A stretch of DNA of 64,000 nt from Cystobacter fuscus (GTDB lineage: Bacteria; Myxococcota; Myxococcia; Myxococcales; Myxococcaceae), in NCBI RefSeq assembly GCF_002305875.1, contig NZ_CP022098.1, forward strand, positions 4,278,001-4,342,000. Direction: 5' to 3'. Shown here piece by piece: positions 43,724 to 50,780 of the stretch. A program made the translations under genes and the position numbers. Every line of letters starts with the position of its first letter. Within the stretch, counting starts at the first letter, position 1. The notes beneath the pieces are model-generated. The model ran no database searches. It was not told the origin of the DNA and saw nothing but the letters and a program-made list of their open reading frames with translations.

Positions 43724-44815
43724 ATGGGATGGGATGAATTGCGAAACCCCGCCACTGTAGAGGCCCAAGAAGTCAGCCCCACCTCCGCCAAGGTGGATGT
43801 CCGCGACAACGCGACGACCCTGGCGCTGTGTGGCAACCAGAACGAGAACCTCAAGCTCATGGAGCGCCGCCTCGGTGTCCGCGTGGGACAGCGGGGGACG
43901 GAACTGCACCTGTCGGGACCCGCGGATGCCGTGGCCTTCACGGTGAAGCTGGTGGAGAGCCTCGAGGGGATGATCCGGGCGGGCCGTGCCATCTACCGCG
44001 AGGACGTGGAGCAGGCCATCAAGGTGTTGGGTCGCGGAGGCGTCGAGTCGCTCCAGGACGTGATGATGGGGCCCGTGCTCAAGAGCTCGGGCAACAGGCA
44101 GATCGCTCCCAAGAGCCTCGCGCAGAAGCGCTACGTGGACGCCATCCGCGCCAACGACATCGTCTTCGGCATCGGCCCCGCGGGCACGGGCAAGACGTAC
44201 CTGGCCATGGCCATGGCGGTCTCCTATCTGCTCGACAGGAAGGTCAAGCGCATCGTCCTGGCGCGTCCGGCGGTGGAAGCCGGTGAGAAGCTGGGCTTTC
44301 TGCCCGGGGACCTGGCCGAGAAGGTCAATCCCTACCTGCGCCCGCTCTACGACGCGCTCCACGACATGATGCCCATCGAGCGCGCCACGAGCTTCATCGA
44401 GCAGGGGGTGGTGGAAGTGGCGCCGCTGGCCTTCATGCGCGGCCGCACGCTCAACGACTCCTTCGTCATCCTCGACGAGGCGCAGAACACCACCGTCGAG
44501 CAGATGAAGATGTTCCTCACGCGCCTGGGCTACAACAGCAAGGCGGTCATCACCGGTGACGTGACGCAGGTGGACCTGCCGGTGGGACGGATGAGCGGCC
44601 TGCACCACGCGCGCTCCATCCTGCGCAACATCGAGGGCCTGTGCATCACCGAGTTCACCGAGGTGGACGTGGTGCGCCACCCGCTGGTGCAGGAGGTGAT
44701 CCGCGCCTACGATCGCTTCGATGCCGCCCAGCAGGCCGCCAAGGCGCTCAAGCAGGCCGAGCAGGCCGCCGAGGCCCCGGTGCCCGCCTCCAGCGACGAG
44801 CCGCCCGGCGCGTGA
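43724..44815 (+). CDS. phoH: PhoH-family ATPase
   Basis: A 363-residue protein. The N-terminal ~110 residues form a KH-like RNA-binding module ([26 protein letters not shown]). The ATPase has Walker [16 protein letters not shown] near residue 151 and Walker [22 protein letters not shown], then [11 protein letters not shown]. PhoH/YbeZ acts in RNA metabolism together with the YbeY endoribonuclease; here a ybeY fusion lies 2.6 kb downstream in the same direction, after the 7TM-HD gene. This phoH-HDIG-ybeY order is widely conserved. Confidence 0.93.
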
Positions 44816-44910
44816 ACTCGCTGGTCGAGTGGTGGGGCGGGGGAGCGATTGGCAGGCAACACGCCGCCTCCCGCCTTGCTTGAAGTCTCCGTCCCGCCTC
44901 TCATAGGTTG

Positions 44911-47415
44911 ATGACCGCCATGGCCGAACCGGAATCGCCGCCCCCCGGACCCAGTCCGCTGGACGCCTTGTCGCGCCGTTTCCGGCTCGGCCCCCAATGG
45001 GGCCGGCGCCTGACGAACCTGCTGTTGCTGGGGGTGGTGTCGGTCGCGGCCGGCTTCGTCATCTCCCCGGGCCTCTACAGCCAGCAGATCCCCGCCCTCA
45101 CCGAGGAGAACCTGGGCCGGCCCTTCCGGACCAACGCGCCGGCGGGGTTCAAGGCCGGGCGGGACTACGACATCCTCCACGGGGCGATGACCGAGAAGCG
45201 GCGCCAGGAGGCCCGCGCCGCGGTGCGCCCGGTGTACGACCTGAGCCCGGGGGTGGCGCCGGAGCTGCGCACCGCCGTGAGCGGCGCCTTCTCGGACATG
45301 CGTCGGCGCCTGGCGGAGAAGGAAGCCGCCGCGCCGCCCGTGCCCGCGGAGGCCACCGAGACGCGCAAGCCGCGCAAGGCGCCCGCGCCGACGGTGGAGG
45401 AGCGCGAGCGTCAGCGCCTGGAGCTGGAGGCGATGCGCGAGGGCTTCCTGGTGTTGCTCTTCGGGCGCCGGGACGCGGAGATCGACGCGGACGACTTCCA
45501 GGCGCTCAACGCGGGGCGCTTCTCTCCGCTCCTGGAGGCGGCCACGCTGTCGCTCGTGGAGCGGGCCTACGGCTTCTCCGAGCCCCTGCCGGTGTACATC
45601 GCCCCGGCGCGCGAGGAGCTCGCGCGCGAGGGTGCCCAGGGCATCACCGTGAGGGACTTGCGCCACAATGGCGAGCAGACCCTGGCGATCACGGCGCCCA
45701 CCGTGGTGGACCTGCGCGAGACCTATACGGAGCTGGAGCGTTTCGCCTCCGTTCCGGGCAACCTCCTGCCGGACGCCCCCGTCGTGCAGCGCCGGGCGGT
45801 GTTGCGGCTGGCCAAGCGGCTGGTGCGGCCCAACCTCACCATCAACCTGGCGGAGACGGACGCCCGGCGGCGCCTGGCGGCGGCGGCGGTGAAGGACGCC
45901 GTCATCTCCATCAAGAAGGGCCAGCGCGTCATCGGCGACGGGGAGCTGGTCAACGAGACGCACCTGGTGGCCATCCGGGGCATGCGCGCGCAGACGGACC
46001 GGTTGGATCTGCTGCAGTTGCAGGTGGGAGGCACGGGCCTGGTGGCGCTGCTCATCTCCGCCACGTACCTCTTCTGCCGGGCGGCCTTCCGGCGCTTCCG
46101 GCCCACGCGCAAGGACGCGCTGCTCCTGGGGCTGCTGCTGGTGTCGATGCTGGGTCTGGCGCAGATCTGGGTGTCCATCGCGGACGCGGTGCAGGACCGC
46201 TACGCGGCACTGCCCCTGGAGGCCTTCTACTACGCCTTCCCCGTGGCGGCCGGAGCCATGCTGGTGCGCTTCGTCCTGTCGGAGGAAATGGCGCTCTTCT
46301 TCGCCATCGTGCTCGCGTGCCTGTGCGGCGTGATGCTGGGCAACTCGTTGTCCTTCGGCATCTACGCGCTGGTGGGGGCCCTGGTGGCGGCCGACCGCAT
46401 CACCCGCGCCAAGGATCGGGTGGGCATCTTCAAGGCGGGCCTCATCACCGGCGTGGCCAACCTGCTCGGGGTCCTCTTCCTCTTCCTGGCCGAGGGCAAG
46501 GGGCTCACCCCCGACACCCTCCTCACCGCGGTGTTCGCCTTCCTGGGCACGACGCTGGGCGTGCCGGTGGTGGTGCTGGCGCTCACGCCGCTCATCGAGT
46601 CCGTGTTCGGCTACGCGTCGGACCTGAAGCTGCTGGAGCTGGCCAACCTCAACCACCCCGCGCTCAAGGAGCTCATCGTCCAGGCGCCGGGCACCTACCA
46701 CCACTCCATCATCATCGGCACGCTGGTGGAGAACGCCGCGGAGGACATCGGCGCCAATCCGCTGCTGGCGCGCTCGTGCGCCTACTACCACGACATCGGC
46801 AAGGGCCGGAATTCGCTCTACTTCGGGGAGAACCAGAAGGGGGACAACCGGCACGATGGGCTCGCCCCGGCGATGAGCGCCGTCATCATCAAGCGCCACG
46901 TCACCGAGGGGCTGGAGATGGCGCGCCAGTACCGGCTGCCCAAGCTGGTGGCGGACGCCATTCCCCAGCACCACGGCACCCGGCTGGTGGGCTACTTCTA
47001 CCACAAGGCCCTCAAGGAGCAGGAGGGCAAGGAAGGCGCGCCTCCGCTCGACGAGAGCATCTTCCGCTACCCGGGTCCCAAGCCCCAGTTCCGCGAGGCC
47101 GCCCTGGTGATGATCGCCGACGCGGTCGAGGCCTCCACGCGCTCGCTGCCGGAGCCCACCTCGGCGCGGCTGCAAGCGCAGGTGCAGAAGATGATCAACC
47201 TCATCTTCTCCGAGGGGCAGTTGGATGAGTGCGATCTGACACTTCGGGATTTGAACCTCATCTCGCAGTCCTTCCTGCACACGCTCGAGGGCATCTATCA
47301 TGCGCGTCCCGAGTATCCGGCCGGTGCACTGCAGGCGGGCCCCAAGGGCTCGCTGATGGTGGCGCCGGCGGCGAAGCAGGATGGCAAGGCGCGTCCGGTG
47401 GGTACGGGCACCTGA
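44911..47415 (+). CDS. 7TM-HD cyclic dinucleotide phosphodiesterase family protein (YqfF/PgpH-like)
   Basis: An 834-residue membrane protein. An N-terminal helix (about 30-47) is followed by an extracytoplasmic 7TMR-HDED domain (to about 370), a cluster of seven hydrophobic helices (about 370-560) and a cytosolic HD domain (about 575-780). The HD signature is complete: GTYHHSIIIGTLVENAA, SCAYYHDIGK and the later IPQHHGTRLVGYFYH. PgpH relatives hydrolyse c-di-AMP; whether this organism makes that nucleotide cannot be seen here. ATG 44911 was chosen; ATG 44920 is possible. It lies between phoH and ybeY, its usual neighbours. Confidence 0.9.
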   Translation: MTAMAEPESPPPGPSPLDALSRRFRLGPQWGRRLTNLLLLGVVSVAAGFVISPGLYSQQIPALTEENLGRPFRTNAPAGFKAGRDYDILHGAMTEKRRQEARAAVRPVYDLSPGVAPELRTAVSGAFSDMRRRLAEKEAAAPPVPAEATETRKPRKAPAPTVEERERQRLELEAMREGFLVLLFGRRDAEIDADDFQALNAGRFSPLLEAATLSLVERAYGFSEPLPVYIAPAREELAREGAQGITVRDLRHNGEQTLAITAPTVVDLRETYTELERFASVPGNLLPDAPVVQRRAVLRLAKRLVRPNLTINLAETDARRRLAAAAVKDAVISIKKGQRVIGDGELVNETHLVAIRGMRAQTDRLDLLQLQVGGTGLVALLISATYLFCRAAFRRFRPTRKDALLLGLLLVSMLGLAQIWVSIADAVQDRYAALPLEAFYYAFPVAAGAMLVRFVLSEEMALFFAIVLACLCGVMLGNSLSFGIYALVGALVAADRITRAKDRVGIFKAGLITGVANLLGVLFLFLAEGKGLTPDTLLTAVFAFLGTTLGVPVVVLALTPLIESVFGYASDLKLLELANLNHPALKELIVQAPGTYHHSIIIGTLVENAAEDIGANPLLARSCAYYHDIGKGRNSLYFGENQKGDNRHDGLAPAMSAVIIKRHVTEGLEMARQYRLPKLVADAIPQHHGTRLVGYFYHKALKEQEGKEGAPPLDESIFRYPGPKPQFREAALVMIADAVEASTRSLPEPTSARLQAQVQKMINLIFSEGQLDECDLTLRDLNLISQSFLHTLEGIYHARPEYPAGALQAGPKGSLMVAPAAKQDGKARPVGTGT

Positions 47416-47440
47416 TGCGCGTGGCGGGAGGAGGGCGAAC

Positions 47441-48286
47441 GTGAAGCTGCGCAAGGGGAAGGTGATTCCCCGCGACGATGGGAAGCGCATCGAGGAGTTC
47501 GTGGGCGCGGCGACGACGGGCACCGACTCGGTGTCGGTGGCGCGCATGCTGGCGCCGCCGGGCTGGAGCGAGCCGGCGCAGAAGCCCGAGTTCGACGAGG
47601 TGGTCATCGTCCTCAAGGGCGAGCTGACGCTCGTGGTGGACGGCCGGCGCCAGCTCATCGAGCAAGGGGAGATGGGCCTGGTGCCCCGGGGCCGCCGGGT
47701 GGTGTACCGCAACGATGGGCAGGGCGCGTGCGACTACTATTCGGTGTGCGCACCGGCCTTCCGGGTGGAGCTGGCGAACATCGAGCAGGCCGAGGAGGAG
47801 CCCCAGGAGAACCGGGTGACGGTGCAGGTGGCGCATCCCCAGGGCAAGCGCTTCTCCAAGCAGGTGACGGAGCTGGCCGAGACGTTCCTGGAGAAGCTGG
47901 AGCTGTCCGGGTGCGAGCTGTCCATCTCGCTGGTGGGCGACCATGCCATCCGCCGGCTCAACCGCACCTGGCGCAAGAAGGACAAGGCGACGGACGTGCT
48001 GAGCTTCCCCGCGGGCGAGGCCCCCAAGGGCACGCCCGGGCCGAGGCAGCTCGGCGACGTGGTCATCTCCCTGGACACGGCGAAGCTCCAGGCCCGGGAG
48101 TACGAGCGCACCCTCGAGCAGGAGGTGGCGCGCTACCTGGCGCACGGCCTCTTGCACCTGTTGGGGCACGACCACGAGCGGCCCAAGGACGCGCAGAAGA
48201 TGGCGCGCGCCGAGGAGCGCCTGCTGGGCGCCAGCGGCATGGTGGGGGACGCGGTGGCCCCCCGGGCTCGCAAGCTCATGACGTGA
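47441..48286 (+). CDS. ybeY: Cupin domain fused to endoribonuclease YbeY
   Basis: A 281-residue protein with GTG start after GGGAGGAGGG. Residues 1-110 are a small single cupin barrel (FDEVVIVLKGELTLVVDG, then GEMGLVPRGRRVVYRN). The common double-His cupin metal motif is not evident. Residues about 125-281 are a full YbeY: DVLSFPAG, ELGDVVISLDT-like (RQLGDVVISLDTA), and the zinc motif H235-GLLH239-LLGHDH245 (H-x3-H-x5-H). YbeY trims rRNA 3' ends and takes part in 70S quality control. It is normally ~150 residues, so the cupin is an extra N-terminal module. It is in frame without a stop between the two parts. Confidence 0.87.
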   Translation: MKLRKGKVIPRDDGKRIEEFVGAATTGTDSVSVARMLAPPGWSEPAQKPEFDEVVIVLKGELTLVVDGRRQLIEQGEMGLVPRGRRVVYRNDGQGACDYYSVCAPAFRVELANIEQAEEEPQENRVTVQVAHPQGKRFSKQVTELAETFLEKLELSGCELSISLVGDHAIRRLNRTWRKKDKATDVLSFPAGEAPKGTPGPRQLGDVVISLDTAKLQAREYERTLEQEVARYLAHGLLHLLGHDHERPKDAQKMARAEERLLGASGMVGDAVAPRARKLMT

Positions 48287-48324: not shown

Positions 48325-48331
48325 GGTGCGA

Positions 48332-49642
48332 ATGTCCCGCCTCGCCTCATCGATGCTCTGTCTGCTCGGCCTGTTGCTGACCGCCCTTCCGGCGTCCGCG
48401 CAGGAGCTGCCTCCCTGGGGAACCGGGGAGAGCCGGGGGGAGGACTTGTCCGTCTATCTGGTCACCTTCGGGCCCGGCGACGACGTGCCGTCCTGGTTCG
48501 GCCACGGCTCGCTGGTGGTGGAGGACCAGAAGCTGCGCCAGTCGCGCCTCTACAACTACGGCATGTTCTCCTTCGACGAGCGCATGCTCCTGCGCTACGC
48601 GATGGGGCGGCTCGAGTTCTGGGTGGACGACGCGAACCCCGCGGCCGTGTTCCGCTTCTACCGCTCGATCAACCGGGACGTGCGGTTGCAGGAGTTGAAC
48701 CTGGCGCCCGCGCAGAAGGTGGAGCTGGGACGGCTGCTGGCGGAGAACGTGCTGCCGCAGAACCGCAACTACCTCTACCACCACTACAACGACAACTGCG
48801 TGACGCGGCTGCGCGATGCGCTCGACAAGGTGCTGGGAGGTCAGCTGCACGCCGCGGCGAGCGGCCCCGGGCGGATGACGCTGCGCGATCACACGCGCCG
48901 CTACACGGCTGTGGGCCCGCCCATGAGCCTGCTGCTCGACTTCCTGATGAACGACGAGATCGACAAGCCCACCACGCGCTGGCAGGAGGCGTTCCTGCCC
49001 GACGAGCTGGAGCGGCAGGTGGCGGAGTTGCAGGTGCTGGGAGAGGACGGCCAGCGTCACCCCCTGGTGGCCCGGTCCTTCACCCTCTACGCGGCGCAGG
49101 GCCGTCCGGCCACGCCCGCGCAGCCGCCGAACTATGCCCCCGTCCTGCTGCTGCTGGGGCTCGTGCTGGGTGGCCTCGCGGTGGGGCTGGCCCTGTGGGA
49201 ACGGCGCACGGGTGGGCGGGCGCCCCGCGTCCTGCTCGGCCTGCAGAACGTCCTGGTGGGCCTGGTGGTGGGGATTCCGGGACTCGCGCTGTTCATCATG
49301 TGGCTGGGCACGGACCACACGGTGACGTACCGCAACGAGAACCTGTTCCTGGCCAACCCGCTCACCGTGCTGGCGCTGCCCCTGGGCTTCCAGTGGATGC
49401 GCGGCTCGCCGCGGGCGCGCGAGAGGATGTGGCGGTTGTGGGTGGTGCTCGCGGCCCTGGGCGTGCTGGGGCTGGTGCTCAAGGCGCTGCCCCTGTTCGA
49501 TCAAGACAACTGGCGCCTCATCGCGCTGCTCCTGCCCGTGTCGGTGGGCATGGCGGGTGCGATGACGCTGGGGCGCTCCGTGGTGGCGGTGCGACAGGCG
49601 TCCCCACCCCTGGCGCCCACCCTGAAGGCTTCTGGCAACTGA
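48332..49642 (+). CDS. DUF4105 membrane protein (Lnb-like lipoprotein N-acyltransferase family)
   Basis: A 436-residue envelope protein. The signal is SRLASSMLCLLGLLLTALPASA; GTG 48326 is an alternative start. The periplasmic DUF4105 domain (about 30-240) contains WFGHGSLVVED, YNYGMFSFD and YNDNCVTRLRD, with the His and Cys that the Lnb family uses for catalysis. At least five membrane helices follow (about 270-430). Lnb proteins acylate the N-terminal cysteine of lipoproteins in place of Lnt; whether this one does is inference. It would be relevant to the many lipoproteins in this window. It lies 37 nt after ybeY and 18 nt before prfB. Confidence 0.78.
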   Translation: MSRLASSMLCLLGLLLTALPASAQELPPWGTGESRGEDLSVYLVTFGPGDDVPSWFGHGSLVVEDQKLRQSRLYNYGMFSFDERMLLRYAMGRLEFWVDDANPAAVFRFYRSINRDVRLQELNLAPAQKVELGRLLAENVLPQNRNYLYHHYNDNCVTRLRDALDKVLGGQLHAAASGPGRMTLRDHTRRYTAVGPPMSLLLDFLMNDEIDKPTTRWQEAFLPDELERQVAELQVLGEDGQRHPLVARSFTLYAAQGRPATPAQPPNYAPVLLLLGLVLGGLAVGLALWERRTGGRAPRVLLGLQNVLVGLVVGIPGLALFIMWLGTDHTVTYRNENLFLANPLTVLALPLGFQWMRGSPRARERMWRLWVVLAALGVLGLVLKALPLFDQDNWRLIALLLPVSVGMAGAMTLGRSVVAVRQASPPLAPTLKASGN

Positions 49643-49660: not shown

Positions 49661-50780
49661 ATGGCGAACGACTCGATGGAGAAAATCGGCGGGCTTCGCG
49701 AGCGTCTGATGGCGCTCAGGGGGCATCTTTGACCTCGATCGCAAGAGGTCTCGCATCGCGCTGATCGAGCGCGAATCCACGCTGCCCACGTTCTGGGACG
49801 ACAACACCAAGGCCCAGGCGATGCTCAAGGAGAAGTCCACGCTGGAGGCGAGCGTGGGCTCCTTCGAGAAGGCGCTCCGGGGCCTGGACGACGCGCAGAC
49901 GCTGCTGGAGCTGGCGGCGGAGATGAACGACCCGGCCAGCGCGCAGGAGGCCGAGGACTCGCTCGGCGCCGTCGAGGCGGACATCGCCAAGCTGGAGCTG
50001 GCGCGGATGCTCTCCGGCGAGCAGGACCGGTCGTACTGCTTCATGGACATCAACGCGGGCGCGGGTGGCACGGACTCCATGGACTGGGCCGCCATGCTCA
50101 TGCGCATGTACACGCGCTACTGCGAGCAGCGCGGCTGGAAGGTGGAGATCAACGACTCGCAGGAGGGCGAGGAAGCCGGCTTCAAGAACGTCTCGCTGCG
50201 CATCGAGGGCGAGTACGCCTACGGCTACCTCAAGGCGGAGGTGGGGGTGCACCGGCTGGTGCGCATCAGCCCCTTCGACGCCAACGCGCGCCGGCAGACG
50301 GCGTTCGCCTCGGTGGACGTGTACCCGGAGGTGGATGACTCCATCCAGATCGACATCCCGGAGAAGGACATCGAGCTGAAGTTCATCCGGGGGGGCGGCG
50401 CGGGCGGTCAGAAGGTCAACAAGACCTCGTCCACGGCGCAGCTGCGCCACCTGCCCACCGGCATCATCATCACCTGCCAGACGGAGCGCTCGCAGTCGGC
50501 CAACAAGGACATGGCGTTCAAGATCCTCCGGGGCCGCCTCTACGAGCTGGAGATGAAGAAGCGCGAGGCGGAGCGGGACGCCGCCGAGGCGCAGAAGAAG
50601 GACATCTCCTTCGGCTCGCAGATCCGCTCGTACGTGCTGGCGCCCTATCGCATGGTGAAGGACCTGCGCACGGGCGTGGAAACGGGCAACGTGGACGCGG
50701 TGTTGGACGGAGAGCTGGAGTCGTTCGTCACCGCCCAGTTGATGGGGGTGAAGAACCCCAACCGCGCGGCCTCCGAGTAG
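49661..50780 (+). CDS. prfB: Peptide chain release factor 2, with programmed +1 frameshift
   Basis: The gene is in two frames. ATG 49661 (after TAGGAGGA) reads 23 codons to an in-frame TGA at 49730-49732; a +1 shift at CTTTGA continues as GAC from 49731 to the stop at 50778-50780, giving 372 residues. RF2 signatures are present: the SPF tripeptide near residue 203, which reads UGA/UAA, and GGQ ([12 protein letters not shown]) near 248, which triggers hydrolysis. The frameshift is the classical autoregulation: when RF2 is scarce, ribosomes stall at UGA and shift. Annotation as only the downstream 350-codon frame would miss the N-terminus. Confidence 0.96.
49718..49733 (+). promoter_or_regulatory. 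prfB frameshift site
   Basis: AGGGGG (internal Shine-Dalgarno-like), CAT, then the slippery CTT TGA C. This matches the conserved prfB recoding signal, including the three-nucleotide gap between the Shine-Dalgarno and the slippery codon. Confidence 0.95.

Follow-up and report, generated by a model that had tools for sequence, protein, structure and literature searches.

YbeY is a near-universal enzyme that helps to finish the small ribosomal subunit. In Cystobacter fuscus its gene appears to begin with a cupin barrel, which raises the question of whether the two domains form one protein, how widely they are joined, and what a cupin might contribute to a ribosome-maturing nuclease. We addressed this question in the window, a 64,000-nucleotide stretch of contig NZ_CP022098.1, and in relatives of its source genome.

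One reading frame, two domains

The N-terminal cupin barrel predicted for this YbeY is real. Within a single frame of 281 amino acids both profiles score above their cut-offs, Cupin_2 at residues 36-102 (37.3 bits against 27.2; Pfam) and PF02130, YbeY, at residues 138-262 (124.6 bits against 25; Pfam), and the protein also matches TIGR00043, the NCBIfam model for rRNA maturation RNase YbeY, at 135.8 bits against a cut-off of 45. An AlphaFold2 model built on a 66-row alignment contains two well-folded domains (mean pLDDT 94.4) whose placing relative to one another is not usable (pTM 0.74), and Foldseek returned separate matches for each half, to solved YbeYs and to solved cupins. The architecture originally proposed, a cupin of about 110 residues ahead of YbeY, stands, with its boundaries corrected: the cupin reaches to about residue 115 and YbeY begins at about residue 125 (Table 1). 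The gene is the single ybeY match in a 12.35 Mb single-contig genome.

The first aligned codon of the fusion is start-capable in all 65 fused copies (64 GTG, 1 ATG), and 17 genomes (15 of g35 and 2 of g17) carry an in-frame start candidate 7-8 codons further upstream. A longer frame from the ATG at 47381 would run over pgpH.

The expected presence of phoH in the same cluster is borne out by the gene order, phoH-pgpH-(cupin-ybeY)-lnb-prfB, in which pgpH directly adjoins the fusion and phoH is the second gene upstream. The Lnb-like protein scores 83.1 bits for Lnb_N (Pfam cut-off 22.2) and falls below the NCBIfam cut-off for Lnb N-acyltransferase (149.7 against 550). Further downstream, prfB, encoding release factor 2, spans 49661-50780 with a short leading frame from the ATG at 49661, and contains at 49727-49733 the motif CTTTGAC, which we take to be the classical programmed +1 frameshift site; the listed prfB open reading frame at 49821 lacks the N-terminus of the protein.

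Table 1. Positions in the window of the fusion gene, its parts and its neighbours.
Feature	Position	Strand	Remarks
phoH	43724..44815	+	PF02562, 318.9 bits; order same in relatives
pgpH-like 7TM-HD protein gene	44908..47415	+	adjoins the fusion upstream; 25 nt gap to its GTG
Shine-Dalgarno-like GGAGGAGGG	47427..47435	+	5 nt ahead of the GTG start of cupin-ybeY
cupin-ybeY fusion gene	47441..48286	+	281 codons plus stop; single open frame without internal stop
cupin domain, residues 1-115	47441..47785	+	basic N-terminus at residues 1-16; diverged loop at residues 83-92
linker, residues 116-124	47786..47812	+	length and sequence vary between genomes
CAGGAG, 6 nt, GTG (codon 126)	47804..47818	+	possible weak internal start, not conserved
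YbeY domain, residues 125-281	47813..48283	+	profile matches, structure matches, alignment to PDB YbeYs
YbeY zinc-site motif HGLLHLLGHDH (H235, H239, H245)	48143..48175	+	each histidine in 65/65; aligned to PDB YbeYs
Lnb-like gene	48326..49642	+	downstream neighbour of the fusion, also in ten relatives examined

Distribution among relatives

The original prediction held that the architecture would be unusual, and this was correct; it is, in addition, conserved. Among 96 genomes of the same family, most probably Myxococcaceae, representing 26 genera, 65 have the fusion open over both domains in one frame, 29 have YbeY alone, and one (G105) yielded no match. In the remaining genome, G061, the fusion is split by a frameshift, which is likely a draft error, because this piece of contig also carries broken copies of pgpH and lnb. 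In relatives that carry the fusion the frame is uninterrupted, apart from one error-rich draft. Every genus is uniform, ten being fused (66 genomes with G061 included; four of these genera are represented by one genome each) and 16 not.

No cupin match was found near ybeY, at E-values up to 1e-3, in the 17 unfused operons of the family that were read (G014, G072, G012, G013, G009, G073, G005, G047, G020, G021, G074, G004, G108, G008, G015, G102 and G022). Two separate genes in relatives, the arrangement named at the outset as the one that would speak against a fusion, were accordingly not seen in these operons, and the idea that two adjacent genes have been mis-joined was rejected because the unfused operons hold no cupin match.

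Outside the family, a cupin query against 195 genomes of the phylum (the family included) found no fusion among the matches listed, and those listed matches that fall in a ybeY frame are all from within the family. No match joins both domains in 30 genomes with a standalone cupin, nor, under strict E-values and among the matches listed, in samples of 398, 297, 299 and 246 genomes, of which the 398- and 299-genome samples share many members, such that the counts are not additive. These searches would miss a YbeY joined to an unrelated cupin. Within the genomes searched, sequence comparison shows the fusion to be restricted to ten genera of one family.

Selection and the question of an internal start

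The two domains have similar rates of change: across 28 close within-genus pairs dN/dS is 0.094 in the cupin and 0.083 in YbeY, and across 65 copies their mean column conservation is 0.893 and 0.878, respectively. Judged by substitutions, purifying selection is similar on both, and the cupin is maintained as a working domain. Mean column conservation is lower across the junction, at 0.70 for residues 114-135 compared with 0.89 and 0.88 for the domains. In G011 the linker exceeds that of the window by 16 residues, and K/R, A and P abound in it.

GTG commonly encodes valine as well, and this bears on an alternative in which a separate YbeY is also, or solely, made from an internal start, the fusion being partly or wholly an artefact. 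The original prediction allowed for a true YbeY start near residue 120, and the window does have CAGGAG six nucleotides ahead of GTG at codon 126. In 14 of the 65 copies, the window included, codon 126 is start-capable and preceded by a Shine-Dalgarno core; a start-capable codon is present at 114, 126, 128 or 130 in every copy (65/65); and 22 of the 65 full-length starts are without a core under the same rule. Against this, only 38 copies have a start-capable codon 126, the other 27 having GTC there, codons 128 and 130 (start-capable in 44/65 and 59/65, respectively) are never preceded by a core, and 43 of the 65 full-length starts do have one, with an upstream in-frame candidate for some of the other 22. 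The cupin is, moreover, under strong purifying selection and therefore translated. We consider this alternative highly improbable. Some species may make a little free YbeY, which would not amount to a conserved device, and an internal start is unlikely to be the main source of YbeY.

The YbeY half

The H3xH5xH zinc site and the conserved arginine of YbeY are present in the fusion. Alignment to 1xm5 equates H235, H239, H245, D206 and R178 with H114, H118, H124, D85 and R59 of E. coli YbeY, and D206 and R178 are, like the zinc-site histidines, invariant in the 65 fused copies. The available text of PMC5101352 describes D85 of the E. coli enzyme as involved in uS11 binding, and places T42 and R44 with it at the uS11 interface. 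T42 and R44 correspond to S161 and S163 in the fusion, each identical in 65/65 copies. The mean net charge of the YbeY half is +5.2. This half is apparently complete and presumably active.

The cupin half

The N-terminal half has a cupin fold, as seen in its Cupin_2 match, a model pLDDT of 93.9, and a best structural match with Z 14.9 over 115 residues (rmsd 1.8). Its nearest family is an orphan standalone cupin of about 120 amino acids that occurs in many phyla. Members of this family are very conserved across those phyla (61-76% identical to the standalone query), and have no recurrent gene neighbour in the 80 loci examined by naive ORF calling (L143-L222, of at least 555 confirmed); the widespread clusters around these loci consist of the cupin and its shadow frames, and the next clusters are common to 4-5 loci. 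A standalone paralogue is also found in at least 46 of the 66 fused genomes. That in the window's own genome (L102, G000:C1:8560092-8560439) is 33-35% identical to the fused cupin.

We compared the 65 fused cupins with 103 standalone ones, namely the 80 many-phyla loci plus 23 of the 24 found in the phylum; L100, which forms part of a longer protein, was excluded for that reason. Six residues of the orphan family (M36, W42, E53, Y99, C103 and F107) are retained in every fused copy, and five more are retained in most (E50 and Y89 62/65, H113 61/65, Q47 60/65, E44 59/65), although E44 and Q47 are both lost in five fused genomes (G006, G010, G041, G042 and G043). We infer that the six invariant residues, together with E50, Y89, Q47 and E44, line the cupin pocket. 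Other positions have changed in concert, E85 to K/R (58/65), W86 to R (63/65), S90 to R (65/65) and P92 to D (63/65), with R114 becoming mostly M or I, and the GEWV-YSTP loop and VHRD end of the orphan EPGQTPEFDE family are absent from the fused cupins.

The canonical metal ligands of cupin enzymes, HxH...E and a distal H, presumably correspond to positions 46, 48, E53 and 87. No histidine occurs at 46, 48 or 87 in any of the 33 copies in alignment A3, of which 10 are fused and 23 standalone, nor at 43-53 or 87 in the 65 fused copies, in which E53 remains and histidine appears at 85 in five and at 86 in one. This register combines the general cupin motif with a weak alignment to 5zbe, and is compatible with a metal site that uses residues other than histidine. 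Among the alignments compared, 5zbe alone spans the histidine stretch; its first repeat (4.1 bits) places HQH onto 46 and 48, and its second places one histidine onto Q47. From its residues, the fused cupin does not resemble a canonical metal-dependent cupin enzyme.

The fused cupins are also more basic, with a mean net charge over residues 1-115 of +0.6 (n=65), versus -3.2 in standalone cupins of other phyla (n=23) and -3.1 in those of the same phylum (n=23). Residues 1-16 alone have a mean charge of +5.0. Lysine or arginine occupies positions 2, 4, 5, 7, 11, 15, 16, 35, 69, 70, 83, 86, 90 and 108 in at least 90% of fused copies, and the N-terminal stretch also has four conserved acidic residues, D12, D13, E18 and E19.

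Origin of the fusion

In a tree of 39 cupins (120 columns), the 11 fused copies included, of 65, form one clade on a long stem (support 100/99), and group with the two rare standalone cupins of G136 and G959 to the exclusion of the 26 remaining sequences (97/97); the bootstrap is not fully settled and G959 sits on a long branch. For the copies placed on it, this tree shows the fused cupins to be a single lineage, a diverged branch of the orphan family. A tree of phoH, pgpH and ybeY (31 rows, from which G022 was omitted for its long branch) implies two state changes: the fused G103, whose branch is long and whose draft genome is 87% complete, falls apart from the rest on a poorly supported backbone, and the unfused G014 is sister to the nine other fused rows. 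A single fused clade is rejected on these 31 rows (p-AU 0.002). The simplest account is one fusion event, followed by loss in G014, or else transfer, because the fused cupins share a single lineage and a single junction; a misplaced long branch is a further option.

The genome G136, of another family, has the order ybeY-prfB-132 aa ORF-cupin (L125:884-3337), in which the ORF has no Pfam match. This linkage was rejected as the ancestral state, given that it occurs in one genome, that its cupin is nearer to the other standalone cupins (about 50% identity) than to the fused ones (about 42%), and that the related cupin of G959 lies on a different contig from its ybeY. In G147 (L100:3148-4416) the same cupin family is found N-terminal to a SAM methyltransferase (Methyltransf_11, 78.4 bits).

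Possible roles of the cupin

Ligand sensing and docking were the two roles suggested at the outset for the cupin, and both are plausible; the changed, more basic surface together with the missing metal histidines speaks slightly more for docking. We tentatively favour, at a probability of roughly 0.4, an accessory docking domain that would provide YbeY with another point of contact on the pre-30S subunit or rRNA. The basic N-terminus and the basic loop of the cupin would make this contact on the pre-30S, probably with RNA or a ribosomal protein, and the YbeY half would perform its ordinary job at the 16S 3' end and the platform, where PhoH, Era and uS11 are its partners. A small ligand may additionally bind in the retained pocket. 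We infer a contact surface because of the basic N-terminus and the switch at E85, W86 and S90. The charge shift is nonetheless weak evidence for docking, because D12, D13, E18 and E19 are conserved and YbeY is itself basic. The steric limits on fusions within the nascent small subunit, stated for Era in the available text of PMC10582724, also count against docking.

Retention of the pocket core (M36, W42, E53, Y99, C103 and F107) argues for a ligand-binding or enzymatic role over docking alone. In the main rival reading, which we regard as unlikely, a bound small molecule alters the activity or recruitment of YbeY and thereby couples 30S maturation to metabolism. Besides the kept candidate residues (six in 65/65 copies; E50, Y89, Q47 and E44 in 59-62), the purifying selection on the cupin is consistent with such a switch, as is the fold match to ligand-binding small cupins such as uridine-bound Pac13 structures (Z 14.4-14.5), although many other structures match as well. 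However, the five genomes without both E44 and Q47 are still fused, the conserved changes at E85, W86 and R114 imply that the site is not simply ancestral, and we know of no ligand for the orphan cupin family. A bolder version, in which the cupin is a sensor gated by a metabolite or nucleotide and turns the fused YbeY on or off on the pre-30S particle, seems to us quite unlikely; were it true, a clade of multicellular social bacteria would tie the maturation of the small subunit, together with the quality control of ribosomes, to a metabolic signal, by way of a sensor covalently attached to a near-universal factor.

A cupin that keeps an enzymatic task of its own, with the joining merely tying two expression levels together, has a small probability in our estimation. 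The family is also joined to a methyltransferase in G147 (L100) and can therefore move as a module, yet the fused cupin lacks the canonical metal ligands, no partner gene recurs beside its standalone relatives (80 loci, ORFs called naively), and most fused genomes possess the standalone paralogue as well. Cupins often dimerise, and the domain might instead pair two YbeY units by analogy with the CENP-C cupin, presumably a non-catalytic, dimerising one, structures of which the fold also matches (7x85, Z 14.1; 6o2d, Z 13.7). No interface emerged from any of the sequence and model analyses made here, and we likewise hold dimerisation to be improbable.

Whether docking or another role proves correct, a fusion that has become fixed in ten genera (all 66 genomes searched there, the frame being broken in one draft) points to a surface or molecule that YbeY meets in the cell. 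It also offers a testable handle, as the cupin is removable with the nuclease left untouched, and ties a widely distributed orphan cupin family to ribosome assembly.

Comparison with known systems

Standalone YbeYs (TIGR00043/PF02130; 1oz9, 7y7o, 1xm5) resemble the fusion throughout the YbeY half, in the zinc-site histidines and in the phoH neighbourhood, but those solved have no N-terminal cupin, whereas the fusion has some 115 extra residues that form a second domain. The orphan standalone cupin (EPGQTPEFDE...GEWV-YSTP) is homologous to the fused cupin over its full length, with W42, E44, Q47, E53, Y89, Y99 and C103 mostly in common; it differs in that the fused cupins lie on a long separate branch with those of G136 and G959, and are without the GEWV-YSTP motif. 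The cupin-methyltransferase of G147 (L100) likewise has a related cupin N-terminal to another enzyme, in one genome and with a SAM methyltransferase in place of YbeY. The EutQ-like 2pyt and TM1459-like 1vj2 cupins share the fold at about 20% identity; TM1459 (1vj2) is, we assume, a His-ligated metal cupin, and the matching stretch of the fused cupin has no histidine.

No description of a cupin-YbeY protein was found among the titles and abstract beginnings of the open-access papers that literature searches listed. In the portions available, a Xanthomonas transcriptome study (PMC10782981) mentions YbeY and cupin once each, and PMC7515705 contains neither 'fusion' nor 'cupin'. A parallel exists in the YbeY-Era fusions, which according to the accessible text of PMC10582724 occur in Clostridia and a few others, are of a kind taken as a sign that both proteins act together, and belong to a class, Era fusions, that is extremely rare. 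These are likewise clade-specific covalent joinings of YbeY to another domain, but in them YbeY precedes a GTPase known as its partner, whereas here it lies C-terminal to an orphan cupin, and no GTPase domain is found among the profile matches of the fusion (Pfam, NCBIfam). As far as can be told, both halves are of known kinds, and it is their combination and the divergence of the cupin that are new.
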